Source: Candidatus Obscuribacterium magneticum (lineage in GTDB: Bacteria; Elusimicrobiota; Elusimicrobia; F11). From it: DNA of 64,000 nucleotides. The first letter of the stretch is position 1. The number at the start of each line of letters is the position of its first letter. Positions 11,084 to 31,933 of this stretch are shown here, one piece after another. A program made the translations under genes and the position numbers. The notes under the pieces are model-generated. The model searched no databases, was not told where the DNA came from, and worked only from the letters and a program-made list of their open reading frames with translations. The stretch is from positions 62,001-126,000 of the forward strand of contig JAJAPZ010000002.1 in assembly GCA_020523905.1 (NCBI GenBank). The letters are read 5' to 3'.

Positions 11084-11782
11084 TCAGAGAAGAACGTTTT
11101 GTTGGCCGGTCAGGATCGAGACCAAGCCCTCAGGGTTTAACCGGCGTAGATTTTCCAGAAATGAATATTCATCTACCCCCCTCCTCGGCAGGATGCTATA
11201 GATGAGTTCCTTTTGTTTTTTCCCGGGGAGGGCATCAATACTGATGAGGGAATATTCGTGCAAATCCCGGAAAAACAACTCTTTGAAAGATTTATCAGCA
11301 TCGAAAGTTTCAGGCACGTGGACCCGAAGCAGCATTTCCGTTTTGATTTTGGCCCCGATTTCGAACCGATAAAGAAAATAAGCGATGGCACTGATGGACG
11401 CCGTGAAAATGAAAGCCAGCAGATAAAAACGTGTCCCGCACGCCATGCCAATCCCCATCGCTACGAATATGAAGCTGACGTCACGTGTATCCTTGACGGC
11501 ATTTCGAAAGCGGATGATGGACAAAGCGCCTACCAGCGCAAATGCCCGCGCAAGGTTGCTGCCGATCAAAAGCATTATCACGGAAATAGTCACCCCGATG
11601 AGCACCATTGAATGTACGAAGGTTTTTGAATACGAAACGCCTTGGTGGGTGATCTTGTAAATAAAAGTCAGAAATAATACGAAGAGGAAGGTCAGAATAA
11701 TGGTTGTTATCACCTCCCAGATTGTGAAGCTCGATGTGAAGTCTGCCGACGACAACGAGATTTGCTTAAGTAATTCATCCAT
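11084..11782 (-). CDS. DUF4956 membrane protein
   Basis: 232 residues. Four hydrophobic segments: VITTIILTFLFVLFLTFIY (about residue 25), MVLIGVTISVIMLLIGS (about 57), FIFVAMGIGMACG (about 105) and FYLLAFIFTASISAIAYF (about 122). Between them is the conserved ARAFALVGALSIIRFRNAVK, followed by DTRD, characteristic of DUF4956. The last 90 residues are cytoplasmic and alpha/beta in character. The function of the family is unknown. It is recurrently found beside VTC-type polyphosphate polymerases and CotH kinases (family knowledge), as here. Last gene of the leftward operon, 30 bases after the VTC gene. It could be the membrane channel or anchor for polyphosphate (inference). Confidence 0.85.
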   Translation of the reverse strand: MDELLKQISLSSADFTSSFTIWEVITTIILTFLFVLFLTFIYKITHQGVSYSKTFVHSMVLIGVTISVIMLLIGSNLARAFALVGALSIIRFRNAVKDTRDVSFIFVAMGIGMACGTRFYLLAFIFTASISAIAYFLYRFEIGAKIKTEMLLRVHVPETFDADKSFKELFFRDLHEYSLISIDALPGKKQKELIYSILPRRGVDEYSFLENLRRLNPEGLVSILTGQQNVLL

Positions 11783-11812
11783 GTTTTTTTAGTGTCTCCT
11801 TTCGTTATGAAT

Positions 11813-12523
11813 TTAAAATTTAGTTCCTGAAAATACCGCTGTATTAATCGAAAAACAATATTTTGATATCCGATCTTGAGCTACCTCGAGTTGGTTAAGC
11901 CGGGTCAATAACCATGTCGGAATAAAGTGATTGCATTTCACTTCCAATACACCCATTGTCGGAGAAACAAAAAACCGGCTGTTTTCTATCGAAAGAGGCA
12001 AATTCAAGCAGCGTGTATTATAACGTATATTCTGATCGAAGGTGATTCTAAGGCCAGGTTCGTTTTTTGCCACAAAGGCATGCCGGTCATAAGCGACGAC
12101 CACGATGGGTCGCAGGTCATATGTTTTAATCAAGCTGTAAGCCTCGGCATAAACGGAATCCAGATGAAAGAGGGGGGCCGGCTGGGAGGCAAACGACAAT
12201 AGTTCCCCCAGTGGTCTTTTGAGTCGGCGTTTTTGAATGGTTTGATCCAACCTTTGCTTGATCTCAAGGAATCCATCCTGAGGGTGCAAACCATACGTTC
12301 GCATTCTCAGCTTCCTTCTAAATCGAAGACCGTCCAGTTTTTCGTAGAAAAGCGTGAGCTCACGGCTGTCAAAATAGAGAGAAGATACTTTGTAGGCATT
12401 GCCTTTTTCGGCATGGGGATCGTCTTCGACGAAATATTGAATATCTTTTATAAGCCACGTGAAGTCCTTGAGGGGCAGGAGAAACTTCAATTCGTATCTA
12501 TTGTTGGACCTCACACTATGCAT
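11813..12523 (-). CDS. VTC-domain polyphosphate polymerase
   Basis: 236 residues, the whole of one VTC catalytic domain. The tunnel-lining basic motifs are visible in order: RYELKFLLP (residues 7-15), FRRKLRMRTYG (about 83), FLEIKQRL (about 100), KRRLKRPLGE (about 113), VVVAYDRHAFV (about 155), LRITFDQNIRYN (about 172) and MGVLEVKCNHF (about 203). In yeast VTC4 this fold makes polyphosphate from ATP; bacterial versions are single-domain and associate with membrane proteins. It overlaps the preceding small membrane protein gene by 8 bases and is followed by DUF4956. Triphosphatase (CYTH-type) activity is an alternative, but the order of motifs and the neighbours favour VTC. Confidence 0.87.
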   Translation of the reverse strand: MHSVRSNNRYELKFLLPLKDFTWLIKDIQYFVEDDPHAEKGNAYKVSSLYFDSRELTLFYEKLDGLRFRRKLRMRTYGLHPQDGFLEIKQRLDQTIQKRRLKRPLGELLSFASQPAPLFHLDSVYAEAYSLIKTYDLRPIVVVAYDRHAFVAKNEPGLRITFDQNIRYNTRCLNLPLSIENSRFFVSPTMGVLEVKCNHFIPTWLLTRLNQLEVAQDRISKYCFSINTAVFSGTKF

Positions 12524-12857
12524 AATCCGACATTTTCCTTGAAAGGATCTTCTTCTGATTGTCCAGTCTTCTTTGTTCCTTATAAAAGATGAGGAGCAAA
12601 TGAAACAACAGCCAGAAACCGACGGTGCATACGAGAATTAAAATTTGGACAGCGCGTCGAACCTTTAATTGGGTGGCCGGATCGACAAAGTAGCCGGCGG
12701 CATCAACAAAAGTTTGAAGGACTGGGATGTCATGAAGAAGAACTTTGAGTGCCACCAAAAACGCACAACCGAAAATTACGGTTATAAAGAAATCAGCCAT
12801 TTTTTCCCAAAAAGACTCATGCCGCCAATACTGAACGGCGTTGCGAATAATTGTCAT
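12516..12857 (-). CDS. Small two-helix membrane protein in the CotH/VTC operon
   Basis: 113 residues with two transmembrane helices (FFITVIFGCAFLVALKVLL near residue 25 and VQILILVCTVGFWLLFHLLL near 75) and a basic C-terminal tail (YKEQRRLDNQKKILSRKM). Not recognised as any known family. It starts four bases inside the CotH gene (ATGA) and its end overlaps the VTC start by 8 bases, so it is translated as part of the cassette. By analogy with the membrane anchor subunits of VTC complexes it may tether the polymerase to the membrane; that is inference only. Confidence 0.7.
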   Translation of the reverse strand: MTIIRNAVQYWRHESFWEKMADFFITVIFGCAFLVALKVLLHDIPVLQTFVDAAGYFVDPATQLKVRRAVQILILVCTVGFWLLFHLLLIFYKEQRRLDNQKKILSRKMSDYA

Positions 12858-15800
12858 AATGATCTCGCTGGGATTGGCCCATTTTTCAGATGAATGACTG
12901 ACTTTCTTTTGATGACCCTAATCCGGTCAATCAGAACGCCGCCTCTCCCCGAGACGTCGATTTCCAGAATTCGGCTTCTCGGCTGCGGAATCCTCATTTG
13001 ATAAAAGCCGGGGGCTTCATAGAGGAACGGAGACGACCAATCCCCTACTTTCATAGTGCCCTGACATGATTTTGCTAATACTTCAACAATTATTTCTTCT
13101 ATCTCGCCTTTTGGTAAAAGGATTTTAACCCGGGGAGTTTTTCGGCTTAATGGGAATTGAGTAAAACTGTTGTCATACTCCTGTGGTTCAATAAGGGCAT
13201 CGTGAACCCCAAACGTGGCATCGAATTCAATATCCTTCTCACTATATAAGCTATAAGTAAAGGGGTGGCGGATTATACCCACGGGCCAATCGGATACTCC
13301 ACTAACTTTCGATATAGGGATCCCTGATATTGGTCCCTGAGCCGTCGGACCAACCAAGGAATTATACGACTTGACTCCGTCCCATGTGCCCGTGGGGTTG
13401 TCGACAGTAGAGTGGTCTAAAACAACAAAGGAATGGTCCCTCATCTCAAAGGTGTTTTTATTTTTGAAAAATTTACTGTTTTTAATCACGGCTCTTCCCG
13501 TGCCTGGGTACCAGCTATTCTTGGTGTAAATGGAAAGAGCCGTGTTATTTGAATTAAATTCGCAGTTGTTAACTTCTCCTTTCGATCCATCTTTCAAGGC
13601 AATCCCAATATTGCATTCGGAGATGGAATTATTCGTGACAATAACGGCGGAATGCTCTCCAACAGAAATGCCTTTGTCGTTGGCCCTTCTAATTTCGTTG
13701 TTAATCAGATAAACGTGGCCTGTCATAATGTCGATCCCATCATTAACCGTATCTTCTATGCGATTATTAACAATGATGCCATCGGACAGATCACAATCCA
13801 AACCGTCCGAGAAAGCTTGTCTGATCTCATTTTCGACGAATTCGAATTTGTCGCATGCCGCCAGGTGAACAACGTCATCCCCTTGGGTGTTGTTGCGGAA
13901 GCGGCAGGATTCAATTCTGATGTCGTCAGCATAATGGATATTAAGCATTCCGCTAAAATTGATCCGCTCATATTGAGCGAGGCTTCCCTTTTCAAAAATG
14001 ACGTTTTTGAATATAGAAGAATCAGCCCCATGTCCCACAACAGCAAAAACGCCCCAAGCAAAGCGAAGATCCATGGGCAATATCCGAATTGGCTTGTCCT
14101 TGGTCCCCACGGACTGAACCTGACCAAAAGAAATAATACTCTTGCCGGGTGCAATGATAACTTGGGTCCCAGGTAGAATCTTCAATGTTTCATTGGCTGA
14201 AATAACCTTATCTTCATTAACTTGAACACGGCCACCCCAGACAATCGTTTTGGGAAGTGGATCGTCCAATAGCCAAGGATGATATGAAGTTTTGTAAAAG
14301 GGTGTGTGATTCAGTAAATTTTCCCATTCATCCTTCGTTAAGGGTTGCGCTGTGACCCCCTTTTTAGTGATGTGATTATTAATGATGGGAACGACAGGTT
14401 TTTCAGTTGTAACGCGAAATGGATAAAGCAATGGGGTCGTCTTCATCGTCTCACCGGAAAGGCTTCTGCCGGGGTAAAGAGTTTGGGGAACCGCTAATAA
14501 AGCCGACCCCGAATTGTTGTTGTAGGTAAGGTTTTCCTCCTTTCCCCCAAATATGTTTTTTTCTTTGGTGATCTGACGAATGAATGGCCCTCCTGTAAAA
14601 CCCATCAATTCACCAGCCACGATTCCATCGGAAACAAACACAATGGAAAAGGATTGATCTTGATTTTTCAGAATCCGATAACGCATCGAACAGCCGTTCT
14701 CGACGGCCTCTTTCATGATGTCTCTGTTGTTCATTAAATTTTTCATTAATGTTTTATTAAGGAAAGAATCACCGGCCCCTTTGTGGGAGTAATCATAGAC
14801 TTCGGCCTGGAGGAATAGATCATTTATCTCCGCCTCTCTTTTTGATCTTTCAGCAATGGATTCAAATGTGTCGTCGGTGAAATAAGGGTAACACCACGCG
14901 TATATATCCTCAAGGAATTTGGGATGGAGAAGCATCTTTTTGTAAAAGAGGTTGATGTAGGGGAACCGCGAGCCGAACTCAGAATAAGGTTTCTGATAGG
15001 AATCCACATACAGATCCCAAACAATCGGTTCAAACCGGCCCGTCAGGGGATTGAGGTACCATTTTTGATTATGAAGATCATCTTGGTGCGCCGATTTCAT
15101 TAATAATGCAAAGCCAATATTTTTAACCGCTTCTTCCCAACTCAACATCTCCATGAACCGGCGGAATTCGTCTAAACCATGATCGTTGAGTTGGCCAATA
15201 AAATCAGCAAGGTAGCGATAGTCATCCCGAGGAATAACATTGGACCTGGCGTTTTTGGTCCACACATAGGGATTCATAAGAAAATTGACCGATCGTAAAG
15301 CTTTCACGGACTGAAAATCCCCGCTATACACATCTCCAGGCATTTTCCTGTTCCGTCGCAGGAACCCCTCATCGGGCGGCTCAAGAGTGTTAAACAATCC
15401 ATAATAACGGCCGTCAATAAAACATCTCAGCGATTTCATGTCCGTGGAAAGAACCCCCAGATCCTTGGCCAGTAAGGCGATAAGGCTGGAGGATTTTTTA
15501 ATAAGATTAAGGACCCTTTTGTGAACGAGGTGGCGTTCATCCTTTCCAAATCGGATTTGAAGCGACTTTAATTCAAAACCCCAATGCAGAAATCCGTCTC
15601 CGCGTAATTCGAGGCGAATCGGCATGATCTGTCCTTGATAATTCAGGAATGCCTTGACCGGACGATCCCCGGATTGAGGCAAGTTGGATCTCAGTTTTTT
15701 AATTTCATCCGGTGACGTCAGAATATTTATGCTTCTTGGATCGCGAATTGAAAAATAAACGCTATTCTGGAGCTTAACCATTCTCCAAAAATGACCTCCC

Positions 15801-15979
15801 TGAGCGATCTCTCGCATGATAAACGCTTGGAGAGGGTATCCACCTTGGTTATGCGTGAAATTAGGGGCTGCCCAATTGTGAAAAACAACGGCCGCAACCG
15901 CACTGGCACAAATAAGCAAGGGGAACGAATAGACAAATATGGTAAACAACCGCCATGAAGGCCTCTTTCTAAATTTCAT
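12854..15979 (-). CDS. CotH-family kinase with C-terminal right-handed beta-helix
   Basis: 1041 residues from the ATG at 15979, which overlaps the TPR gene stop by 11 bases; a further in-frame ATG at 16015 adds 12 polar residues and is less likely. After a membrane anchor (LFTIFVYSFPLLICASAVAA, about residues 9-30) the CotH domain runs to about residue 440. It shows the N-lobe region (LRGDGFLHWGFELKS), DGRYYGLFNTLEPPDEGFL, and the active-site part AHQDDLHNQKWYLNP followed by FEPIVWDLYVDS. CotH proteins are secreted atypical kinases. Residues about 580-870 form parallel beta-helix repeats (rungs with NNRIEDTVNDGIDIMTG and the like), often a glycan-binding or lyase scaffold. A final beta domain (about 900-1030) may bind carbohydrate. 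The fusion suggests phosphorylation of a surface polymer or protein, in the periplasm or outside. Confidence 0.8.
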   Translation of the reverse strand: MKFRKRPSWRLFTIFVYSFPLLICASAVAAVVFHNWAAPNFTHNQGGYPLQAFIMREIAQGGHFWRMVKLQNSVYFSIRDPRSINILTSPDEIKKLRSNLPQSGDRPVKAFLNYQGQIMPIRLELRGDGFLHWGFELKSLQIRFGKDERHLVHKRVLNLIKKSSSLIALLAKDLGVLSTDMKSLRCFIDGRYYGLFNTLEPPDEGFLRRNRKMPGDVYSGDFQSVKALRSVNFLMNPYVWTKNARSNVIPRDDYRYLADFIGQLNDHGLDEFRRFMEMLSWEEAVKNIGFALLMKSAHQDDLHNQKWYLNPLTGRFEPIVWDLYVDSYQKPYSEFGSRFPYINLFYKKMLLHPKFLEDIYAWCYPYFTDDTFESIAERSKREAEINDLFLQAEVYDYSHKGAGDSFLNKTLMKNLMNNRDIMKEAVENGCSMRYRILKNQDQSFSIVFVSDGIVAGELMGFTGGPFIRQITKEKNIFGGKEENLTYNNNSGSALLAVPQTLYPGRSLSGETMKTTPLLYPFRVTTEKPVVPIINNHITKKGVTAQPLTKDEWENLLNHTPFYKTSYHPWLLDDPLPKTIVWGGRVQVNEDKVISANETLKILPGTQVIIAPGKSIISFGQVQSVGTKDKPIRILPMDLRFAWGVFAVVGHGADSSIFKNVIFEKGSLAQYERINFSGMLNIHYADDIRIESCRFRNNTQGDDVVHLAACDKFEFVENEIRQAFSDGLDCDLSDGIIVNNRIEDTVNDGIDIMTGHVYLINNEIRRANDKGISVGEHSAVIVTNNSISECNIGIALKDGSKGEVNNCEFNSNNTALSIYTKNSWYPGTGRAVIKNSKFFKNKNTFEMRDHSFVVLDHSTVDNPTGTWDGVKSYNSLVGPTAQGPISGIPISKVSGVSDWPVGIIRHPFTYSLYSEKDIEFDATFGVHDALIEPQEYDNSFTQFPLSRKTPRVKILLPKGEIEEIIVEVLAKSCQGTMKVGDWSSPFLYEAPGFYQMRIPQPRSRILEIDVSGRGGVLIDRIRVIKRKSVIHLKNGPIPARSL

Positions 15980-17012
15980 TCTTTGGGTATCCAAATTTGG
16001 AGAGCCATCCGTCATTGCCGGTTCGCTGAATTAAATCAAGATTTTCGTCGGTTAACTCCTTGAAACAGCGAAGTCGAATACGGGCATATGTAACATTGTA
16101 CGATGTCGGAAATTGAATCGCATATTCCCCGATTTCTTTTTCGTGTTTAATTTTTAACTGTGATTTGGAAATGTTTACTACTGGAATAAGATATCGTACC
16201 GTTAGTTTTTGGATCGAATCGATAGATAAAAGGCATTCGTTCATCCCATTAATCCGAATAACATGATTATCAACGGGCACATCAATTGCTTGGGATTTGC
16301 CATTGGAAGGGATAAAAAATTCTTTGTTGCTGATGGTAGCTCTTTGGTAAGACAAGCTGGTTAAGTATTCGTGAAGGAGTTCCCATGATATTTCTGGGTG
16401 ACCCATGACACTTGCGGCTGTCGAGTAGTCTGTAAACAGGTCGCGTGAATACGGTTCGATTTGCCATGCTTTCTGATAAAATTCCAAACAGGCCGGATCA
16501 CCACGATGCATAAGAAACCGGGCCAATGCATGATAACTTTCTTTTGAGAGAGGATCGAAACCGATCCAGTCACGGAGAATTTCCTCCCTGCGATTTTGTT
16601 GGCGGCCGTATTGGAGGTAAGCTTCGTCGAGATACCTGTACAATGTCAATTTAGCGGCGCCGAGAAAATGGGGTTGCTGAACATGTGATAAATCTTTAAA
16701 CAATCTTTCGCCGTAACGAATGGCATTTAAGTAATGGCGGGAAGATATTTGTTCTTTCATTCTATCCAATGTTCTTGTCCATGACCGGCTCCGAGTACGG
16801 TTAATAAATTCAACCGATAAAGCCTCGCGCAGTTTAAAGGAAACCAGGTTCGATTTAGACGGTAGAAAAAGGAACACAAAAGGCAAGAATACTGCCAATA
16901 ATGAAATCAAAATGAGAAAAAGGAGTTTTTTTTCGTATCGATATAATGCTCTTAAAAGTTGTCTCAATCGTGAATCCTTTTTGATGATAGTCATGGAATC
17001 AATGGTATGCAT
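15969..17012 (-). CDS. Membrane-anchored TPR-type protein
   Basis: 347 residues. Residues 1-27 are basic, followed by one strong membrane helix (KLLFLILISLLAVFLPFVFL, about 29-50), so most of the protein is periplasmic. Residues about 95-230 read as helical repeats of TPR type (HYLNAIRYGERLFKDL, LYRYLDEAYLQYGRQ, SYHALARFLMHRGDPA, CLEFYQKAWQIEP). The last 110 residues are beta-rich. It resembles scaffold proteins such as AlgK in alginate export, which also carry TPR-like repeats, but this one keeps an inner-membrane anchor. The start codon shares a base with the stop of the upstream SGNH gene (TAATG). No enzymatic motif seen. Confidence 0.6.
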   Translation of the reverse strand: MHTIDSMTIIKKDSRLRQLLRALYRYEKKLLFLILISLLAVFLPFVFLFLPSKSNLVSFKLREALSVEFINRTRSRSWTRTLDRMKEQISSRHYLNAIRYGERLFKDLSHVQQPHFLGAAKLTLYRYLDEAYLQYGRQQNRREEILRDWIGFDPLSKESYHALARFLMHRGDPACLEFYQKAWQIEPYSRDLFTDYSTAASVMGHPEISWELLHEYLTSLSYQRATISNKEFFIPSNGKSQAIDVPVDNHVIRINGMNECLLSIDSIQKLTVRYLIPVVNISKSQLKIKHEKEIGEYAIQFPTSYNVTYARIRLRCFKELTDENLDLIQRTGNDGWLSKFGYPKNEI

Positions 17013-18013
17013 TATGAGGCCGTCGGAATTTGAGTTTTCATAATTTTATTGAGGTCGCCGTCGAAAATATCGGACCACTTGTTCGCCCCATTCTCTGTTA
17101 AATGCGTGATATCGGAAAAATCCTGGACCGTAAAGGATGGGTGCGTGGAATAATTTAGGTAAAAAACCTCATTAGGTTTTGTTTTTCTTTGGAAGTAACG
17201 CTCATACTCCATGATCGTGTCGGGATTATATCCATCAAGCTCATTTGATCGCGCTGGAGCCATGACAAGAATCACCTTTATACCGCGATCAGAGCAAAAC
17301 TTAAGTATTTTGTTGAAATAATCGTCTTGAATGGGAAGTCGCGTCAAATCCCTTATAAGGGAGTCATTTTCAAGCGCAAAGGAGAACGCTATCACGTACT
17401 GTCCATTGTCTCTTAAAAAGGCTTTCATAAAACGTGGTTTCCCTTGCAAAGCTCGAAAAATGTATTTTGAACAAGAGAGAGCAGTCCACGCAAATTTTTT
17501 ACTCATAAAGGAATTGAAAGACGTGTTGAGAGGAGAAAAGAAATCACGCCCCAATAGCCACCTTGTTAACCCATGGATGGATTGAATGGATTGCTGGTAA
17601 TCCTTTTTGTAACCGTCCCCCAAATATTTAAAGTAGACATGGTTCCGGGTGTAGGGGAGATAAGAAAATTCGAAATAATCCATGCCCAAAATAAGATATT
17701 TAAATTTCTTCCTTTTTTTGTCGAGATAAAGGAGTTTAAAGTAGTACTGGTTAAATGACCCGTCATCGTTGGCAAAATTGAAGGTTGGAATGGATACTAA
17801 GTCCGGATTCAGCCCGCGGTATATTCTCGAGTTGCCGAGAGCAAGGCAATCGTAGGTTCGGGACTCCGCCAGTGTAAAGCTTCGATCTATCTGCTCGTCT
17901 GTCCCCGGCCCCAATTCGTACCTGATAAAATAAGGGGCATATTTAAAGTTGAGCATGATGACGACGAAGATCGGGAATGTGAAAAGAAGCGAGTGAAAAA
18001 TGAATTTTCTCAT
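17012..18013 (-). CDS. SGNH-type acyltransferase partner (AlgJ/AlgX/DltD-like)
   Basis: 333 residues with an N-terminal membrane helix (FHSLLFTFPIFVVIMLNF) and the rest periplasmic. The first SGNH block is CLALGNSRIYRGLNP (about residue 55), a second block follows at LILGMDYFEFS (about 108), and the catalytic Asp/His pair is DFSDITHLTENGANKW (about 307). Such proteins move an acyl group from the MBOAT membrane protein to a polysaccharide or teichoic acid (AlgJ/AlgX for alginate, DltD for teichoic acids). The MBOAT gene is directly upstream, six bases away, and the TPR gene directly downstream, matching an alginate-type acylation module. Confidence 0.7.
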   Translation of the reverse strand: MRKFIFHSLLFTFPIFVVIMLNFKYAPYFIRYELGPGTDEQIDRSFTLAESRTYDCLALGNSRIYRGLNPDLVSIPTFNFANDDGSFNQYYFKLLYLDKKRKKFKYLILGMDYFEFSYLPYTRNHVYFKYLGDGYKKDYQQSIQSIHGLTRWLLGRDFFSPLNTSFNSFMSKKFAWTALSCSKYIFRALQGKPRFMKAFLRDNGQYVIAFSFALENDSLIRDLTRLPIQDDYFNKILKFCSDRGIKVILVMAPARSNELDGYNPDTIMEYERYFQRKTKPNEVFYLNYSTHPSFTVQDFSDITHLTENGANKWSDIFDGDLNKIMKTQIPTAS

Positions 18014-18019
18014 GGAATT

Positions 18020-19492
18020 TTAAAATTGAAAGTAGATAAAGTCGGCCGCTGTATATTTCCCTAGGAACAATAAAAAGAAGAAGAGTAAATAATAAATTGA
18101 ATACCGCACATAAGCGGGCCGTTCCGAGAGCATATGCCGGATGCTCCCGTGCCGTTGAATGGAATGCACAATCTCAAGGATAAGGATTGAGATGAGGGCG
18201 ATTGATACCTCCCACTTCCGTTGGCTTAATAAAACATAAGCACCAATGAAATGCTTGTTTGTGATGTTGCTTAAAAACGTTCCCCATCCCGTGAACAAGT
18301 GTGTCACGATGTAGATGGCATCATTGAGGTTTTTTGAACGGAAAAATATCCACGAGAAATTGATGAGTGCGAAAGTTGTCGAAATCCGCGTGTATTTTAA
18401 TAGGTTGGGGTGGCGGGTGATGCCTGTTTTCACGAGAAGTTGGGACCGGACATCGATCGTTAGTTGAGATACAATAAGGTAGATGCCGTTGAGAGACCCC
18501 CAAACAATAAAAGTCCAGTTGGCTCCGTGCCAGAGTCCACTGAGTAAAAAGGTGAGAAATACATTGAAATAATAACGAGGCTTGTTAACCCGATTTCCCC
18601 CCAGGGGAATGTAAAGATAATCACGAAACCAAGAGGATAAGGAAATATGCCATCTTTTCCAAAATTCTCCGATTGATTTTGAAAAATATGGCCTCTTGAA
18701 ATTATCCATTAAGCGAAACCCCATGACTTGAGCAGATCCAATGGCAATGTCCGAATAGCCAGAAAAATCGCAATAGATTTGGAAAGCAAAGAAAACAGTG
18801 GCAATGACAAGTGAAACGCCTTCATAATGAGTCGGGTTTTCGTACACCTGGTTAACAAAAAGAGAAATTCGGTCCGCGATCACCATCTTTTTAAAAAATC
18901 CCCACAACATTAGTTTTAATCCATCCGCCACACGAGCGTAATTAAACTCCTTCTTTTCTCGTAATTGAGTTAAAAGATTTTGAGGGCGTTCAATGGGTCC
19001 CGCTACCAATTGAGGATAAAACATGACATATAGAGCAAAAATGCCGAGATTTCTTTCCGCTTTGTATCGCCCCCTGTACACTTCGATTGTATAGCTCATG
19101 GACTGAAAGGTGTGAAAAGACAGGCCAATAGGAAGGATGATTCCAAGTGTGGAAAACGTTTGGTTTGAACCAACCCAATGAGATATGGCATTTAAATTGC
19201 CAATAGTGAAATTGAGGTATTTAAAAACCGCAAGGACGCCGATATTGGCGATCAAACTCAATATGAGAAATTGGCGGCGTCGAACGCCCCGTGCCCCTTC
19301 GATAAGAAGGCCAGCGACATAATCAATACTGATGGTGAACAGGAGAATGAGAATATAAATGGGGATAAACGCCATGTAGAAATAACAACTGGCAAAAAGA
19401 AGCCAGATCCACCGGAAACGATGAGGGAGGATAAAAAAACCGGTAGTAACAAGAGGGAAGAAGATAAAAAAGTGAAGAGAATTAAACAGCAT
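18020..19492 (-). CDS. MBOAT-family membrane O-acyltransferase (AlgI-like)
   Basis: 490 residues from the ATG at 19492, which lies inside the end of the GT4 gene; an in-frame start 13 codons upstream is less likely since the chain from MLFNSLHFFIFFP aligns with AlgI starts. Around ten membrane segments. Signature residues: FWKRWHISLSSWFRDYLYIP (about residue 280) and the catalytic histidine in LSGLWHGANWTFIVWG (about 325). It carries acetyl or another acyl group across the inner membrane for O-acylation of a surface polymer. Together with the neighbouring SGNH protein it makes the AlgI-AlgJ type pair. Confidence 0.9.
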   Translation of the reverse strand: MLFNSLHFFIFFPLVTTGFFILPHRFRWIWLLFASCYFYMAFIPIYILILLFTISIDYVAGLLIEGARGVRRRQFLILSLIANIGVLAVFKYLNFTIGNLNAISHWVGSNQTFSTLGIILPIGLSFHTFQSMSYTIEVYRGRYKAERNLGIFALYVMFYPQLVAGPIERPQNLLTQLREKKEFNYARVADGLKLMLWGFFKKMVIADRISLFVNQVYENPTHYEGVSLVIATVFFAFQIYCDFSGYSDIAIGSAQVMGFRLMDNFKRPYFSKSIGEFWKRWHISLSSWFRDYLYIPLGGNRVNKPRYYFNVFLTFLLSGLWHGANWTFIVWGSLNGIYLIVSQLTIDVRSQLLVKTGITRHPNLLKYTRISTTFALINFSWIFFRSKNLNDAIYIVTHLFTGWGTFLSNITNKHFIGAYVLLSQRKWEVSIALISILILEIVHSIQRHGSIRHMLSERPAYVRYSIYYLLFFFLLFLGKYTAADFIYFQF

Positions 19493-20582
19493 GAAGTGTC
19501 TGGAGAATGATTCCCTCGTATATCTTTGCAATGACTGGAATTGAGTAGCGTTCTAATACCCGCGTTCTCGCATCCTTTCCTATTTGGGTGACCCTTTGGG
19601 GATCCTTGATAAAAAAAGTGAGGTGTTCTTCCCATTCTTCGGGGGAAGAGCATATCCATCCCCCGACATTATCACGAAGGGCTTCTTTATAGGATTGCTG
19701 GGGACTGGCCAGCGCCGGTAAACCTGCAGCCATGCCCTGTGTTATCTTTAGTTCCGTGTGCCCCATCTCATAGGCGCAATCAAGTATTTTGGGTGAAATG
19801 ATGACGTCGGCCTGATCCATCCATTTGTGGAACAAGATACGCTGACGGCCAAAGGGTTTCGGTTCGCTGAAAGGCACAACGCGGGCCCCGATGTTTTTCT
19901 GCAATCTTTCAATAACATCGACGCGGGGGGCGCCCTCGATCTTGTCGAACACCATGGTCAGTTCGATCGAAGATTTTAATTTTTCCAAGACCGGGGCTAT
20001 TAATTCGAGATGATAGGCTTTCCATTCGATGCCGCTCCAGAGGAGCCGTAACTTTCCATGGGATGCACTCTTTTTGGGGTTCGGCTTGTACATTTCAGTG
20101 TCAATGGGATCTGGAATCCAGACGATATTTTTGTTGTATCGCCGGCAGATCTCCGCCAAATAAGTGGAATCGGCCACGACACAATCGGCCAGAGAGGTCA
20201 TCTTTTTCGCATTTTCCATTTGCCATGGCTTGGGGATCGTCCCCGGCATTCGATGGTTTCCCCAGTCCTCGTAATAATTGACGTTCGCGTCAAAGATGAC
20301 CTTTGTCCCCCTCTTTTTCAGCCGCTCAACAGCGTCGATAACATAATCTTCGAATCTTTTTAAAACGATGACGATGTCACACTTCTTCCATAACGACCAA
20401 AGAGGATAGGACCAATCAAAAAGAACCATCTCAAACAGGGGATTCGTTCGCTGGAGATAAAGGCCCACTTCCTCATAGCGCATTCGTCCGACGATGCTTA
20501 AGCCCTGCCATGGCATTTTTAGGAGGCTCAATCGGCCAAACCGGCCGGCGTTGTCAACGATCCAACCGACTCGAATCTTCAT
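19482..20582 (-). CDS. GT4-like glycosyltransferase
   Basis: 366 residues of GT-B fold. The donor-binding half is visible in the second part: LRLLWSGIEWKAYHLELI (about residue 180), DVIISPKILDCAYEMGHTELK (about 260) and QGMAAGLPALASP (about 285). The first half shows ADSTYLAEICRRYNKNIVWI followed by a conserved PDPIDTEMY, the hinge seen in GT4 enzymes. It probably adds one sugar to the lipid-linked or polymer acceptor of this cluster in the cytoplasm. Start is four bases after the epimerase stop. A decayed near-copy of its middle lies at 10978-11082, at the other end of the same operon. Confidence 0.75.
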   Translation of the reverse strand: MKIRVGWIVDNAGRFGRLSLLKMPWQGLSIVGRMRYEEVGLYLQRTNPLFEMVLFDWSYPLWSLWKKCDIVIVLKRFEDYVIDAVERLKKRGTKVIFDANVNYYEDWGNHRMPGTIPKPWQMENAKKMTSLADCVVADSTYLAEICRRYNKNIVWIPDPIDTEMYKPNPKKSASHGKLRLLWSGIEWKAYHLELIAPVLEKLKSSIELTMVFDKIEGAPRVDVIERLQKNIGARVVPFSEPKPFGRQRILFHKWMDQADVIISPKILDCAYEMGHTELKITQGMAAGLPALASPQQSYKEALRDNVGGWICSSPEEWEEHLTFFIKDPQRVTQIGKDARTRVLERYSIPVIAKIYEGIILQTLHAV

Positions 20583-20586
20583 TGGG

Positions 20587-21600
20587 TTAAAACATCCTTT
20601 GAACCCAGGTCTTCGGCGTTTTGTCGTCGATAATTTCTATGTCCAAATGGTACCTGAATCTTTTAACACCTCGTTTCCGAATGTACTCGATCATCTTATT
20701 TAGGCCATCCCGCAATGGAGTTTGAGTTTTGTAACCCAAAAGCTTCCTCGCTTTATCAGCCGAACAAGTGGCGAATTTAACCTCCTGCGGCCGATCCGGG
20801 ACATAGATCGGCTTTAACGGGAAATCCAGCAACCCCGCAATGGTTTTAGCCAAATCATTGATAGTGATCTCCTCCTCGTCCGGCCCGATGTTTATTTTCT
20901 CCCCGACGACATTTTTTTGAAAGCCTAATTTGACGAGGCATCCCACCACGTCGTCAATATAGGAAAAACACCTCTTCTGCTGCCCATCACCGTATATAAT
21001 GGGTTGCTTTCCTTGCAACATGCGGTTGATCATTATGGAAGCAACGTTTCGATAGGGATCATCGTACTTTTGTCGGGGCCCGATGATGTTATGGGGAATA
21101 GCGTGAACGACTTCGAAGCCATGAGTTTGAGAAAGGACATCTAATATCTGTTCCGCCGCCAATTTGGACACGCCATAGGGATCTTGAGGTTTCGGTATCA
21201 TGTCTTCCGTAAAAGGGACTTTGTCTTGTTTGCCGTAACGGGCCATGCTTGAACAATTAACGAACCGTTTTATACGACACGACGATGCCGCAGAGGCCAT
21301 TGTGGCTGTGATCTGGAAGGTGTTTTCACAAACAAGGTGGGGAGAAAAAACACTTAAACCTTCGTATGCGACACAAGCGGTGTGATAAACAATGTCAATT
21401 TCCATTAATAGCCTCACCATTGTGTTCAAGTAGCGACAGTCGACCTGGTGAAACTCAACCTCGTCAGGGACATTGTCCAAATATCCCCCCATTAGGTTAT
21501 CGCATCCCGAAACGCTGTGGCCCTCCTTCAAAAGGGCCTCGGCTAAAGCACTCCCCAAAAATCCCGCCACCCCCGTGATGAAAATGTTTTTTTTGGCCAT
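20587..21600 (-). CDS. NAD-dependent sugar epimerase/dehydratase (GalE-like SDR)
   Basis: 337 residues. Rossmann nucleotide site FITGVAGFLGSALAEALL at the N-terminus; catalytic YxxxK in DPYGVSKLAAEQIL (about residue 140); serine in CSSMARYG (about 117). Residues RCFSYIDDVVGCLVKLG (about 205) and INIGPDEEEITINDLA are typical of the extended short-chain family acting on nucleotide sugars. Probable reaction: epimerisation or dehydration of a UDP- or dTDP-hexose to feed the glycosyltransferase downstream. A strong ribosome site (GGGAGGAGG) stands before the ATG. Which sugar it acts on cannot be read. Confidence 0.82.
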   Translation of the reverse strand: MAKKNIFITGVAGFLGSALAEALLKEGHSVSGCDNLMGGYLDNVPDEVEFHQVDCRYLNTMVRLLMEIDIVYHTACVAYEGLSVFSPHLVCENTFQITATMASAASSCRIKRFVNCSSMARYGKQDKVPFTEDMIPKPQDPYGVSKLAAEQILDVLSQTHGFEVVHAIPHNIIGPRQKYDDPYRNVASIMINRMLQGKQPIIYGDGQQKRCFSYIDDVVGCLVKLGFQKNVVGEKINIGPDEEEITINDLAKTIAGLLDFPLKPIYVPDRPQEVKFATCSADKARKLLGYKTQTPLRDGLNKMIEYIRKRGVKRFRYHLDIEIIDDKTPKTWVQRMF

Positions 21601-21667
21601 TGGCCTCCTCCCTGTTTTTCGTAGTTTGGACTTTATATCAATTTAAAAATTGATTTCAATATTCCCC

Positions 21668-23008
21668 TCAAGAAAAAGAGTCGATTTTCTCCACTCTTTT
21701 AATAATAAAGCGGCCCACAGATTCTCCCAAGAGCCTATAACCCGGGTTGTCAAAATGCACGGAATCACGGATCATCAACTGATCGATTTGGGACTCTTTC
21801 TCGCGGGCGAAGTCATAAAACCACAGAGCCGATTTATTTTCTCTTGCAATTTGTCGGAGAACGTCATTCATCTGTTCGACGTATTCATAGGCAACATGTG
21901 ACATATATTTTATTTGGTGAGTTTGAGTCAATAAGAGCAAAGAACCCCCATGTATTCGAACGATACCCAGGAGAGTAACGATGTTTCTTTTGTAAGTTGA
22001 AAGGCCAGAAAAATATTGAGGATCGCCGGGATCAGGAAAATAACGGGCCGTGACAGCCATAATGCCCCCATTAAGCCGGCGGATGGTATCTAATAACAAT
22101 ACCCTCCGAAAAATCGAATAGAGAGCAGAATAATCAAGAAAACGCGGCCCATAGTCAAAGAGCCGATATCGGTTGAGCGTGATCATATCCAGGGACGTGC
22201 GCCAGTGAGAATAGTCCGACTTGAAATGACCGATTTCCGGTCCAACATAAGAAGGATATATGTCGTTGCTGGCCTCGTAAAAAACGACGACGTCTGGCGA
22301 GTAATCGATGGCGCGGAAGGCCAACATCGCAATGTTGTCAGCGGTTGTGAAGGCCGCTAGAGCCGCATTTATCACACGATACCGGTATTTTGTGGATTTT
22401 TGGTTAAGATATTTCCAAAGAAAATACGGATAAGGAGAATCCGTTGTTGATCCACCCAAGGCCATGATCGTCATGGCCGGCTTCTTTTGATCGGGCGGGT
22501 CAAACACGACAAAACCGTTCTCGTCCGTTGTTTTAAAAACCGACTCTCCATTTTCCTGCATAACGACCCGTTTGAGACCAGCCTTTCGAACATAGGGAAT
22601 AAACGGAGTGGGCTCATACGTTCCCATGATCAACCGATAATTTCGCAACTTGTTGTAACCTTCGTTACAGTATTCAAGTGTAAATCCTTGGTAAATTAGT
22701 TTGGCTGAGCGACGTATATAATAGAGCGGTGTTTTGCGTCCCTGGTAGGACTTCCCTTCAAATTCGTAGCTTTCTATGACCCCGTTTTTAAAGACCGGTA
22801 TGACAATATTCCCGCCATGTAACCATTTGTTTTTGAGGGGGATAAGGATGGCGGTTGTGGCGAATAATGCGTGCAAAACGATCTCGATAGCCAAAAAAAC
22901 AATCAAGATAAATAGAAATTTATGGCCATAAGATAAGGGTTGGCGATGACCGGCATTATCAGTTCTTATAAGGGATAATATTTTGCGTTGTGAGAACAAG
23001 GGTATCAT
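21668..23008 (-). CDS. Membrane-anchored SGNH/GDSL-like hydrolase
   Basis: 446 residues with one N-terminal membrane helix (KFLFILIVFLAIEIVLHALF, about residues 30-50), the bulk periplasmic. The SGNH catalytic elements are: serine in MALGGSTTDSPYPYFLW (about residue 185), EASNDIYPSYVGP (about 245) and the Asp-x-x-His-type pair in IRDSVHFDNPGYRLLG (about 420). The spacing of GGST-type, ND and SVH blocks is that of GDSL-type esterases that act on acylated glycans or lipids. It is the second gene of the leftward cluster and may edit acyl groups placed by the MBOAT pair. Substrate unknown; start has no strong ribosome site. Confidence 0.65.
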   Translation of the reverse strand: MIPLFSQRKILSLIRTDNAGHRQPLSYGHKFLFILIVFLAIEIVLHALFATTAILIPLKNKWLHGGNIVIPVFKNGVIESYEFEGKSYQGRKTPLYYIRRSAKLIYQGFTLEYCNEGYNKLRNYRLIMGTYEPTPFIPYVRKAGLKRVVMQENGESVFKTTDENGFVVFDPPDQKKPAMTIMALGGSTTDSPYPYFLWKYLNQKSTKYRYRVINAALAAFTTADNIAMLAFRAIDYSPDVVVFYEASNDIYPSYVGPEIGHFKSDYSHWRTSLDMITLNRYRLFDYGPRFLDYSALYSIFRRVLLLDTIRRLNGGIMAVTARYFPDPGDPQYFSGLSTYKRNIVTLLGIVRIHGGSLLLLTQTHQIKYMSHVAYEYVEQMNDVLRQIARENKSALWFYDFAREKESQIDQLMIRDSVHFDNPGYRLLGESVGRFIIKRVEKIDSFS

Positions 23009-23040
23009 ATGTTGTTAGACACATTCTAATCAGTGACTGT

Positions 23041-23799
23041 TCATTTGAGATAAAAAGGAGATTGTTCATCCGATATATTGACGATAAAAATCATGCCGCC
23101 GATGCCATATTTTCGAAACGGCGTTAACTTGATACGGGGATTCTCATGAAGCCATTTTTCAAGTGCCAGCGCCTCGCCGGACTTAAGGTCACCATTCATC
23201 AAGAAGAAATCATCCAGGAATAATACCGTGCCATTTTGAACCACGGGAGTCAAAAACTCAAGGCAATTCACGGCAGATTCATATAGATCACAATCGATGT
23301 AGACAATAGCCACTTTATTGATGGCATATTTTTTTCTCATTTCATCCGTCAATGTATCCTTAAACCAGCCATTCAAAATAATAATGTCCGAGTTTTTACG
23401 GGCCCATTTGATGGATCTTTCAAATTTATCCAGTGGCCAATTATACTGACCGGCTTGAAAGGTGTTCTGACGATTGGATAGCGAGGGAACCATTGGCAAA
23501 CCCCGAAAAGAATCACAGGCGATGAACCGGCCGGGAAACTTTTTATAAACACTCGTCCGATACGAGTTGCGTGCCGTCCGAAGGGCCAGGCGGAACGTAT
23601 CCCCCTGAAAAACCCCGAATTCGATGTAATCCCCTTCCGTTCCATTACGGCTGATAAGATGGAAGGCCTCAACCAACGCCATCGCTTTTAAGTGAATCGC
23701 CATAATTTCTGGTAAAAACGTCATCCGACCGTATAGCCAGTTTAAGAATACCGCTCCTGTTCTCTTCCAACTGTAGTATGATTTATCTGATCCTTTCAA
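23041..23799 (-). CDS. TylF/macrocin-type SAM-dependent O-methyltransferase
   Basis: About 252 residues. SAM-binding motif GDYIEFGVFQGDTFRLAL near residue 55, second motif FIACDSFRGLP near 97, metal-binding motif IVYIDCDLYESAVNCLEFL near 170 and VLFLDDFF near 195. This is the pattern of the TylF family, which methylates sugar hydroxyls and is often found in surface-glycan clusters. Start: no ATG is available; TTG at 23799 lies 8 bases after AAGGAG, whereas the TTG at 23805 is too close to the site. First gene of the leftward string that leads into the CotH/VTC cassette. Confidence 0.82.
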   Translation of the reverse strand: MKGSDKSYYSWKRTGAVFLNWLYGRMTFLPEIMAIHLKAMALVEAFHLISRNGTEGDYIEFGVFQGDTFRLALRTARNSYRTSVYKKFPGRFIACDSFRGLPMVPSLSNRQNTFQAGQYNWPLDKFERSIKWARKNSDIIILNGWFKDTLTDEMRKKYAINKVAIVYIDCDLYESAVNCLEFLTPVVQNGTVLFLDDFFLMNGDLKSGEALALEKWLHENPRIKLTPFRKYGIGGMIFIVNISDEQSPFYLK

Positions 23800-23840
23800 A
23801 ATCAAATCTCCTTCGTAAAATTAATAATAGATAAGGTTAT

Positions 23841-26959: not shown

Positions 26960-27717
26960 GCGAGGGACCTTTTGGCGACGAAAAGGAGAATGTTGCTCGG
27001 CAGCCCCAGAAAGTAGTTCCTTTTGATTTTAATGTCAAAATTTCCAGGTTGGAGTAGTTTGAGAAGTTGATGAGCCGAAAGCAGATTTAAGTTTTTTTCA
27101 GAAGAATAAAACTCGTATCCCATCCATTTTATCAATCTCCTAAAAATCCGCGGGGGAAACCAATGCACCAGCGGCAATCGAGTATGCAATTCAATGGGGT
27201 ACCACCGGTTCGGCGTGGCCACCATAGCCTTTTTACAAACCCTCAGGAATTCCCTTAAAAATAATCGTTGTTCTTCTCTTGATCCGACATGCTCAATCGT
27301 CGCGTTACAAAATCCCATATCAAATTCGTTGTCATTAAACGGAAGCTTTTGGTTAGGTGTCAGGCGCACAAACTTTAAACCCGAATAACGTGCTTCTAAA
27401 AATCGGCAATCTTCGATACCTGTGCAAACAACCTTATTTTTAAACGGATAATAATGTTCGAAATAATTCTCAAGGGGATGAGGTACATCAGTGACGCCCA
27501 AATTAAGTACGCTGTCATCCTCCGTCGGTTTTAAATGTCTTATAAATGACTCATAGATCCTTTTCCGGGGCTTATGCTGAAGATTCCATATGAATAAATT
27601 ATTGAAGAACCTTTTGTAATAACGCCGATCACCACTGGGGCCCGGTCGGATATCATCAATGAAGGGACTCGATTTTTTATCGGAATGATTTAAGGGATTC
27701 AATGATATAGTCGACAT
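26956..27717 (-). CDS. Class I SAM-dependent methyltransferase
   Basis: 253 residues. The methyltransferase core: SVLNLGVTDVPHPLENY (motif I, about residue 70, with Asn-Leu-Gly in place of the usual D-x-G-C-G), FDMGFCNATIEHVGSREEQ (motif II-III, about 130) and FLREFLRVCKKAMVATPNRWY (about 150). The HVG/EH pattern resembles UbiE- and sugar-methylating enzymes. The start lies inside the end of the aminotransferase gene by 41 bases. It likely methylates the same surface sugar that the neighbouring aminotransferase and acyltransferase modify; the acceptor is unknown. Confidence 0.75.
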   Translation of the reverse strand: MSTISLNPLNHSDKKSSPFIDDIRPGPSGDRRYYKRFFNNLFIWNLQHKPRKRIYESFIRHLKPTEDDSVLNLGVTDVPHPLENYFEHYYPFKNKVVCTGIEDCRFLEARYSGLKFVRLTPNQKLPFNDNEFDMGFCNATIEHVGSREEQRLFLREFLRVCKKAMVATPNRWYPIELHTRLPLVHWFPPRIFRRLIKWMGYEFYSSEKNLNLLSAHQLLKLLQPGNFDIKIKRNYFLGLPSNILLFVAKRSLA

Positions 27718-28778
27718 CGTTTGAGGTCAGGTTCGGGTGAAGAGGGAGGTTGAGTCCTTCTTCATTGAGTTGTTCGGAATTGGGCAAGTGAACCTGTGTT
27801 TTGTATATGGAATTCATGTGGAGAGGATGAAATCGTAGAGTGGTGTATATTTTTTTCGATAACAAGTAATGCGCAAGGGCATCCCGTTTGTTGTTGACGA
27901 CCCTTATAAAGTATGTGAAATATGAATGCTTATCATTGGAGGCCGCCTCCGTTGGTCGGATTAGCCACGAGAGTCCGGAGAGTTCCTTTTGATAGATGTC
28001 CCAGATCTTTTTTCGACACTGTTGTAGCTCGTCTAATCGTCGAAGTTGAGCCAGCCCGATGGAGGCCAGAACATCGCACGGGAGGAATTTTTGAGAAAAA
28101 TCAGAGATTTCATACTCCCACCACCGGCTTTTGTTTGCCGAGGCTTCAAAACCCGACTTGGAAATCCCACAGTAGCGCAATTTGCGAGCTTTTTGTGTCC
28201 ATTCAGGATTTTGTGTTGTAATCCCCCCCCCCTTCTCCCATCGCCAGGTTTTTAACCGAATCAAAACTGAAAATTCCGACTGTCCCAATTGAACCCAGAG
28301 CTTTTCCATTTAGCGTAGAGTCAACGGCGTGAGCAGCATCTTCAACCACAGGAAGTCCCAGGTCGAGAATTGGGCCCATTTTAACCGGCAATCCCGCGTA
28401 GTGGACAACCATGATGGCCCCCGATCTTTTGGTGAGGTGCGGCAATATGGTATCGATGGAAATGTTTTGCGTATGTAAATCAACATCACAGAAAACAGGT
28501 TTGTGGCCAGCGAGAACAATGGCGTGAGCACAAGCAATCCACGTAAAACTAGGGACGATGACTTCTGTCCCCTTTGGAAGATCCATAAGTTTCATCGCCA
28601 TGTAAAGGCTGTTTGAACCGCTGTCCAAAAGAACAAAGTCTTTTAGTTGTCTCCTCTGAGCAAACAATTGTTCAAAGGCTCTAACCTTGGGGCCGATGCC
28701 CAGCCATTTGTTTTCAATGCTGGTTTTAATTTCATCAAGTTCCGCAGGGCCCACGGCTGATCCAAAAACGGTTATCAT
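27677..28778 (-). pseudogene. DegT/DnrJ/EryC1 sugar aminotransferase, frameshifted at a run of ten G
   Basis: PLP-dependent enzyme that converts a keto sugar nucleotide to an amino sugar. The N-terminal part (28778 down to 28203) reads through GWLGIGPKVRAFEQLF, SGSNSLYMAMKLMDLP and the lysine segment FSFDSVKNLAMGEGGG, and then runs to a premature stop. The C-terminal part continues in the next frame (ITTQNPEWTQKARKLRYCGI through HSYFTYFIRV) to a stop at 27677. The switch falls exactly at ten consecutive C on the plus strand (28223-28232). Nine would restore a normal protein of about 366 residues. Either sequencing error, recent loss, or reversible slippage. The start overlaps the preceding acyltransferase stop by four bases (ATGA). 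Confidence 0.8.
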
Positions 28779-31096: not shown

Positions 31097-31933
31097 AACT
31101 TGATCGAATAGAAAATGGCTTAAGCCGTCCTGCCACGAATCAAGTTTACCGATGCATTTTTCCCATTTCGCCATGGAAAGGCAAGCTCTTTTTGGTCTGG
31201 GAGCAGGCAGGTGGAGGTCATCAATTGATATAGGAACGACGTATTTTTGGCCATCAAGGCCCATCAGTTCGCAGAGTTTCATGGCGAACTCGTGGCGGGA
31301 GCAAAAACCGGTATGACAGAGGTGATAGGTCCCGTAGGGGGCCTTTGATGATAAGAGCCGATAAATCCATCCAGCCAAATCGGCGGTATAGGTTGGGGAA
31401 CAGAGGAGATCGGTGGCCGCTTTGATTTTTTGACCCGTTTGAATGGTTTCCAGCAAACGGGTGGCGTGATTGGGCCGTGAGGTCCCATAGAGCCCGCTGG
31501 TCCTTAAGATGTAATGTTTTCCCCATTCTTGAACGGCTTTCTCTCCCATCCACTTTGTTTTCCCGTAATTTCCTGTCGGCTGAGGCTCATCGTCCTCAAT
31601 GTAAAGGTCCGGTTTGTCGCCTTTAAACACGTAATCTGTAGAAATGTGAACAAAGGGGATATTCATTTCCCGACAGGCCTTGGCGATATGGGCCGGACCT
31701 TGGGCGTTGACATCCATGGCCGCTTGGGGATTTTTTTCAGCCCCATCGACATCGCTGAAGGCAGCGGCATTAATCACCCATTCGGGTTGGTCTTGTGAAA
31801 GGGTTTTCCGCACGGCGGTCTCATCGACGATATTGATTTCGATATCGTGCGGTATTGCTGTGATGTTGGCGGGAGCCTGGCGGAGGAGGTCTGTTCCTAA
31901 TAGGCCCTTGGCACCAAAAACAGTGACTTTCAT
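31028..31933 (-). CDS. rfbD: dTDP-4-dehydrorhamnose reductase
   Basis: 301 residues starting at the ATG at 31933, which overlaps the stop of the heparinase-like gene (ATGA). NADPH site MKVTVFGAKGLLGTDLL; substrate/catalytic Thr-Asp-Tyr and Lys: FVHISTDYVFKGDKPD (about residue 99) with GNYGKTKWMGE (about 126), the Tyr-x-x-x-Lys region of the family. It reduces dTDP-4-dehydro-rhamnose to dTDP-L-rhamnose in the cytoplasm. The partner genes rfbA, rfbB and rfbC are not in the window. The last 22 residues (RHSRENGNPSRKQYFRFPLS and RE) are the translated palindromic repeat, so the native C-terminus was replaced. Confidence 0.88.
   Translation of the reverse strand: MKVTVFGAKGLLGTDLLRQAPANITAIPHDIEINIVDETAVRKTLSQDQPEWVINAAAFSDVDGAEKNPQAAMDVNAQGPAHIAKACREMNIPFVHISTDYVFKGDKPDLYIEDDEPQPTGNYGKTKWMGEKAVQEWGKHYILRTSGLYGTSRPNHATRLLETIQTGQKIKAATDLLCSPTYTADLAGWIYRLLSSKAPYGTYHLCHTGFCSRHEFAMKLCELMGLDGQKYVVPISIDDLHLPAPRPKRACLSMAKWEKCIGKLDSWQDGLSHFLFDQVRHSRENGNPSRKQYFRFPLSRE

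Follow-up and report, generated by a model that had tools for sequence, protein, structure and literature searches.

A recurrent CotH-VTC-DUF4956 module beside a putative O-acylation pair in an Elusimicrobiota surface-glycan island

Three gene families, encoding a CotH kinase, a putative VTC-type polyphosphate polymerase and the membrane protein DUF4956 (hereafter the trio), have been described in Gram-positive pel loci as cotH-PPP-DUF4956 accessory genes (PMC7112168). Here we find the trio in an Elusimicrobiota MAG, in one row with an MBOAT acyltransferase and an SGNH protein. This raises the question of what the trio does, and whether its union with an acylation pair reflects a shared task or the crowding of glycan genes at one locus.

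The gene row and its surroundings

The window, i.e. the whole 64,000-nucleotide stretch analysed, carries a minus-strand row of seven genes at 11084-19492. The row belongs to a longer co-directional run (approximately 11084-23805) that continues upstream, beyond MBOAT, with four further genes. The features of the run are as follows.

11084..11782, minus: DUF4956 membrane protein (Pfam PF16316, 2.7e-14)
11813..12523, minus: VTC-family triphosphate-tunnel enzyme, putative polyphosphate polymerase, without a transmembrane (TM) segment (Pfam PF09359, 1e-41)
12516..12857, minus: two-TM protein of 113 aa, family unassigned; two hydrophobic segments, gene overlapping those of VTC and CotH
12854..16015 (start maybe 15979), minus: CotH kinase-beta-helix protein, predicted to be N-anchored and secreted (Pfam CotH 5.8e-13, Beta_helix 4.8e-18)
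15969..17012, minus: protein of 347 aa with one, N-terminal, TM segment, a helical TPR-like middle and a beta-rich C-terminus
17012..18013, minus: N-anchored SGNH/DltD-like protein, putative MBOAT partner (DUF1574 8.7e-4, weak)
18020..19492, minus: MBOAT O-acyltransferase of AlgI/DltB type (Pfam MBOAT 2.8e-27)
19482..20582, minus: GT4-type glycosyltransferase (Pfam), 11-nt overlap with MBOAT
20587..21600, minus: NAD-dependent sugar epimerase/dehydratase (Pfam Epimerase 2.3e-50), 4-nt gap
21668..23008, minus: second N-anchored SGNH/GDSL protein (Pfam Lipase_GDSL_2 1.1e-7)
23041..23805, minus: TylF-like methyltransferase, which starts the run (Pfam TylF 1.8e-14)

An earlier note, made from the DNA letters, had read the row as seven genes with overlapping ends. 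The genes are indeed contiguous or overlapping, with families as given by Pfam: the spacing is +30 nt between DUF4956 and VTC, -8 between VTC and the 113-aa protein, -4 from there to CotH, -47 between CotH and the 347-aa protein, -1 to SGNH and +6 to MBOAT. From MBOAT upstream to TylF the gaps are -11 to +67 nt. Promoter and terminator scans of the window gave sites that were not usefully in excess of shuffles. The MBOAT ORF can be read from a TTG at 19531, and the ATG at 19492 that the note had chosen is probably the right start.

The row sits within a large surface-glycan island, whose genes in the window include GT2, RmlD, DegT, a hexapeptide transferase, a sugar amidotransferase-like protein, a heparinase-like protein, AsnB and a UDP-sugar dehydrogenase. 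Reading by eye adds NeuB-like, nucleotidyltransferase-like and flippase-like genes immediately beyond the window, and a second MBOAT lies on the same contig. No processive synthase was found next to the trio in the window. The heparinase II/III-like gene (31930-33996), which AsnB and the UDP-sugar dehydrogenase adjoin, has a GC content of 0.54 vs 0.44 in the trio region. A DegT/DnrJ/EryC1 aminotransferase is split over two overlapping frames (27677-28309 and 28203-28778), either an assembly frameshift or a broken gene. MAG contamination is 13%; the contig is most likely native, since one of its genes, 16 kb away, is 70% identical to a gene of a genome of the same family.

Recurrence of the trio and of its union with MBOAT

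GTDB genomes were searched by VTC alone, with the other families modelled on locus ORFs, which gave 76 analysable loci, among them the window and a second locus from the Elusimicrobiota. DUF4956 shares a run with VTC in 69/76 loci and CotH does so in 65/76, with all three together in 62/76. MBOAT was found in 15 of the 76 runs, all of them among the 62 trio loci. Ten of these genomes have a background density of 74 MBOATs per about 31.5 Mb. For 76 runs, each taken as 10 kb, this predicts approximately 1.8 with an MBOAT, so that the observed number is about 8-fold higher (Poisson 9e-10, a figure that ignores kinship and is inflated by it). The association of these families, whose co-occurrence the earlier note had proposed as a check, is thus beyond chance. 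Even so, the MBOAT label requires at least 7 changes on the VTC tree, where the window VTC and the Firmicutes MBOAT loci fall in separate supported clades. Because the window VTC is phylogenetically remote from these loci, the link between acylation and the trio arose more than once. To that extent the suggestion of a trio joined with an acylation pair in one row held: the module recurs, and its union with MBOAT/SGNH recurs in distant bacteria. Within the Elusimicrobiota, VTC is rare and scored above the cut-off in 6/341 genomes, five of which have the trio (the DUF4956 frame of G188 is short), and MBOAT adjoins that of the window only.

The trio recurs in four settings. In one, VTC, DUF4956 and CotH are followed by a protein of ~700 aa, a HEAT protein and a chitin-synthase-like GT2; the ~700-aa protein is present in thirteen loci, ten of them with HEAT and GT2. 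This arrangement matches Clostridium perfringens NELoc-2, published as a cluster of VTC, a membrane gene, CotH, a 685-aa protein, HEAT and a chitin-synthase-like protein in which the module was not recognised (PMC2879425). The NELoc-2 gene beside VTC was annotated at the time as tubulin/FtsZ (PMC2879425); it has the length and place of DUF4956 and is followed by CotH. A second setting, mostly in Lachnospiraceae, joins VTC-DUF4956-CotH with MBOAT, an AlgX/DHHW-type SGNH protein and GT2. Twelve Firmicutes loci combine MBOAT, AlgX/DHHW and GT2 with the trio, and the GT2 of one (L031) bears a PilZ domain. Two trio copies, complete or partial, flank MBOAT-AlgX-GT2 in the Lachnospiraceae loci L031, L034, L039 and L044 (and L024 and L026), suggesting within-operon duplication. 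In the third setting, to which the window belongs, VTC and DUF4956 are accompanied by a CotH-beta-helix protein; this setting is seen in Pseudomonadota, Desulfobacterales, Chloroflexota, Elusimicrobiota and others. At one Chloroflexota locus, the run with CotH-VTC-DUF4956 also encodes a fusion of a phytase domain with a beta-helix (L025:16138-18306), a further enzyme related to phosphate. The fourth setting comprises three Pel loci, in one of which Pfam confirms PelG. In 17 trio loci, some of which lie on short contigs, no modelled exopolysaccharide family was found. Lastly, three VTC loci without CotH (L011, L048, L081) carry a Cthe_2159 carbohydrate-binding protein beside VTC.

It has been stated that the synteny of the trio is absent outside Pel loci (PMC12345266); this does not hold in our wider GTDB search. 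A Pel locus was also considered for the window and rejected, as no PelG was found in its genome (71% complete); the window run has no PelG either, and pelDEADAFG linkage was not found there.

What the proteins would do

The VTC family profile matches yeast Vtc4 at 1.4e-19. Nine residues of the window protein (K13, R73, R75, K89, K98, R147, R159, E194 and K221) align with Vtc4 K200, R264, R266, K281, K294, R361, R373, E426 and K458, which we take from structural work on Vtc4 to be catalytic or tunnel-lining. All nine are invariant among 35 bacterial VTC sequences, and this conservation would allow polyphosphate synthesis by bacterial VTC. No VTC relative was found in viral contigs. DUF4956 (AlphaFold pLDDT 87) carries four TM helices and one more hydrophobic helix, which closes with the invariant RFR-type motif (R91/R93), and then a C-terminal ACT/ferredoxin-like domain; G85, R91, R93, D101, F106 and G112 are invariant over 49 sequences. 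A fold search matched the small soluble C-terminal domain, which resembles ACT/PII-like folds, and returned no solved structural relative of the TM part that would support a channel.

The CotH protein consists of a kinase domain (approximately residues 90-440), a beta-domain (444-575), a right-handed beta-helix (586-890) and a C-terminal beta-sandwich (961-1035). The kinase domain matches Bacillus cereus CotH by profile (3.4e-30) and by Foldseek comparison with 5jda (E 8.6e-15, TM 0.74 by target). Candidates for the catalytic and metal-binding positions are D312/D313, with N316 and D334 also present; in the alignment the Asp of the CotH-beta-helix class is shifted by one residue relative to B. 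cereus CotH, and the presumed catalytic Asp is retained in most lineages. The beta-helix fold is predicted with pLDDT mostly >90 over about 590-830, and by Foldseek it is most similar to polysaccharide lyases/epimerases, with matches to AlgG, AlgE, PL6 lyases, GH87 and RbmB. The 13 other CotH-beta-helix fusions are just 17-25% identical to the window protein, and the beta-helix is the most conserved part of the fusion. Fifteen of its residues (D714, D737, D740, D742, D759, D762, D780, K781, S784, G786, E787, K808, D809, S811 and K832) are identical in 14/14 fusions, and the conservation of this Asp/Lys/Glu ladder exceeds that of the kinase motif. No AlgG-like DPH motif was seen in the ladder. 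Judged from these alignments, the charged ladder resembles a face that is active or binds a polymer, possibly a polysaccharide-acting site of an undescribed kind.

Of the two smaller proteins, the one of 113 aa has no homologue among the ORFs of related loci; its weak Pfam match to Srg and its matches to NADH subunit J look like TM composition and were judged spurious. The 347-aa protein had been called an anchored TPR protein, a pattern read by eye for which Pfam gives no match even at E=5. It is placed like the proteins with TM, helical and beta parts found upstream of CotH-beta-helix in Pseudomonadota; homology to these is unsupported (hhalign probability 4.6%).

The window MBOAT matches the NCBIfam DltB model at 8.2e-44, below the cut-off. 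Its GLWHGANW and FWKRWHISL motifs are common to trio-linked MBOATs and the conserved His is present. The SGNH protein scores 0.036 against DltD, below the cut-off; its sequence shows the LGNSR motif of block I and the DITH motif of block V. We therefore regard the two as a putative AlgI/AlgJ-type O-acylation pair, the SGNH member by motif and weak profile only.

A working model and its alternatives

The earlier note had described the trio as recurring without a role. The recurrence stands; the absence of a role does not, since the trio has been described in Gram-positive Pel loci (PMC7112168) and deletions of its CotH and DUF4956 genes alter both the amount of Pel and aggregation (PMC12345266). 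In the Streptococcus intermedius trio (SIR_1592-1594), deletion of CotH gave less Pel and deletion of DUF4956 more, both with reduced aggregation, whilst deletion of the VTC gene SIR_1593 had no reported effect on aggregation and Pel was still produced in all three mutants (PMC12345266). These genetics show the trio to be accessory. Since it is portable and joined to at least four types of machine, including alginate-style acylation, it probably serves polysaccharide assembly in general. With the neighbourhoods added, we take it as the safest reading, at a probability of about 0.8, that the trio is an accessory module of exopolysaccharide assembly.

We hypothesise that the trio is a transferable accessory module by which exported polysaccharides are built or modified, coupled here to O-acylation by MBOAT and SGNH. 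VTC would make polyphosphate from cytosolic ATP, and DUF4956, as its membrane partner, would move the chain or its phosphate across the membrane under control of the ACT-like domain. Outside the cell the anchored CotH-beta-helix protein would bind the polysaccharide through its beta-helix, the CotH domain would transfer phosphate to the polymer or to a protein on it, and MBOAT/SGNH would add acyl groups. The polyphosphate product, its export, its use as a donor and the substrate of CotH are all steps that we infer; export feeding CotH is plausible, and the use of polyphosphate as donor is the least secure part. Predicted localisation favours this scheme, CotH having an N-terminal anchor and VTC none. 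So do the recurrence of the trio and of its union with MBOAT, the Pel and aggregation phenotypes (PMC12345266), the invariant VTC tunnel residues, the CotH fold, the likeness and ladder of the beta-helix, and the Cthe_2159 carbohydrate-binding proteins at loci without CotH. As a whole, the scheme in which VTC makes polyphosphate, DUF4956 passes it outward and CotH modifies a polymer or scaffold bound by the beta-helix is our preferred one, tentatively and at somewhat less than even odds. Several observations weigh against it: the lack of a reported aggregation change upon VTC deletion and the Pel retained in the trio mutants (PMC12345266), the VTC-DUF4956 loci without CotH, the 17 trio loci without modelled exopolysaccharide families, and, as noted above, the lack of a processive synthase adjoining the window trio and of a solved structure, related to the membrane part of DUF4956, that would support a channel. 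Moreover, the only solved CotH ligand complex that we found, 5jda, contains AMP and Mg, which fits a nucleotide donor, and donating phosphate to CotH cannot be the whole role of VTC because three loci lacking CotH carry Cthe_2159 instead. That the trio forms a general extracytoplasmic pathway, with polyphosphate exported by VTC-DUF4956 as the phosphoryl donor with which CotH kinases phosphorylate a polymer or its scaffold, alongside O-acylation and across several polymers and phyla, we consider improbable. If true, an exported polyphosphate donor would explain how extracellular kinases obtain phosphate without ATP.

One of the two main rival readings is regulation, with CotH, VTC and DUF4956, the last an ACT-like sensor, tuning the amount or export of a phosphate-free polymer by phosphate or nucleotide state. 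More Pel without DUF4956, less without CotH and some in every mutant (PMC12345266) would suit such a device, DUF4956 has an ACT/PII-like cytosolic domain, and the authors of the Pel study themselves proposed regulation by phosphorylation (PMC7112168). However, a CotH predicted to be N-anchored and secreted, and often fused to a beta-helix resembling polysaccharide enzymes, is odd for a regulator of cytosolic synthesis, and we regard this reading as rather unlikely. The other main rival, which we think still less likely, is that polyphosphate exported by VTC-DUF4956 serves as a matrix cross-linker, with CotH/beta-helix binding polymer and/or polyphosphate rather than acting as a kinase. Cthe_2159 proteins in the place of CotH at some VTC loci and a ladder better conserved than the kinase motif would suit that role, but most lineages keep the presumed catalytic Asp of CotH and VTC deletion has no reported aggregation phenotype (PMC12345266). 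Finally, the acylation pair and the trio of the window may act on different products and be mere neighbours. The island is rich in glycan genes, the contig has a second MBOAT and the other Elusimicrobiota trios examined (G101, G186, G188 and G343) have no MBOAT nearby; however, overlapping genes link the two sets and the same union is found independently in Firmicutes, which makes this the reading to which we give the least credence. Being joined to several types of machine, the trio is open to study in several hosts.

Compared with known systems, the row resembles parts of several. The alginate machinery (AlgI, AlgJ/X, AlgG, AlgK) shares with it an MBOAT and SGNH pair, a beta-helix of AlgG-like fold and an anchored helical protein; it differs in that the window row has no adjoining alginate synthase genes and its beta-helix lacks the AlgG DPH motif, and to our knowledge alginate loci have neither kinase nor VTC. 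The catalytic tunnel residues of the yeast VTC complex (Vtc4) are kept in the window VTC, whereas the yeast DUF202/SPX domains would be replaced by a separate DUF4956 protein as membrane part and regulator. The B. cereus spore coat kinase CotH (5jda) shares the kinase fold and, by alignment, key motifs; the window protein differs by its N-terminal anchor, its fusion to a beta-helix and its non-spore setting. Pel loci have the same three adjacent families in an exopolysaccharide locus, a secreted CotH and a DUF4956 of four TM helices with an ACT domain, whilst the window has MBOAT/SGNH in the place of PelG and a CotH-beta-helix instead of the FN3 domain of S. intermedius. NELoc-2 has a GT2 synthase and a HEAT protein and no acylation pair. 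In the open-licence literature we found no other description of the union, the beta-helix class or the Cthe_2159 swap. Three things are new with respect to these systems: the trio is repeatedly joined to MBOAT/AlgX-type acylation, CotH-beta-helix fusions form a class that has an invariant charged face, and Cthe_2159 takes the place of CotH at some loci.
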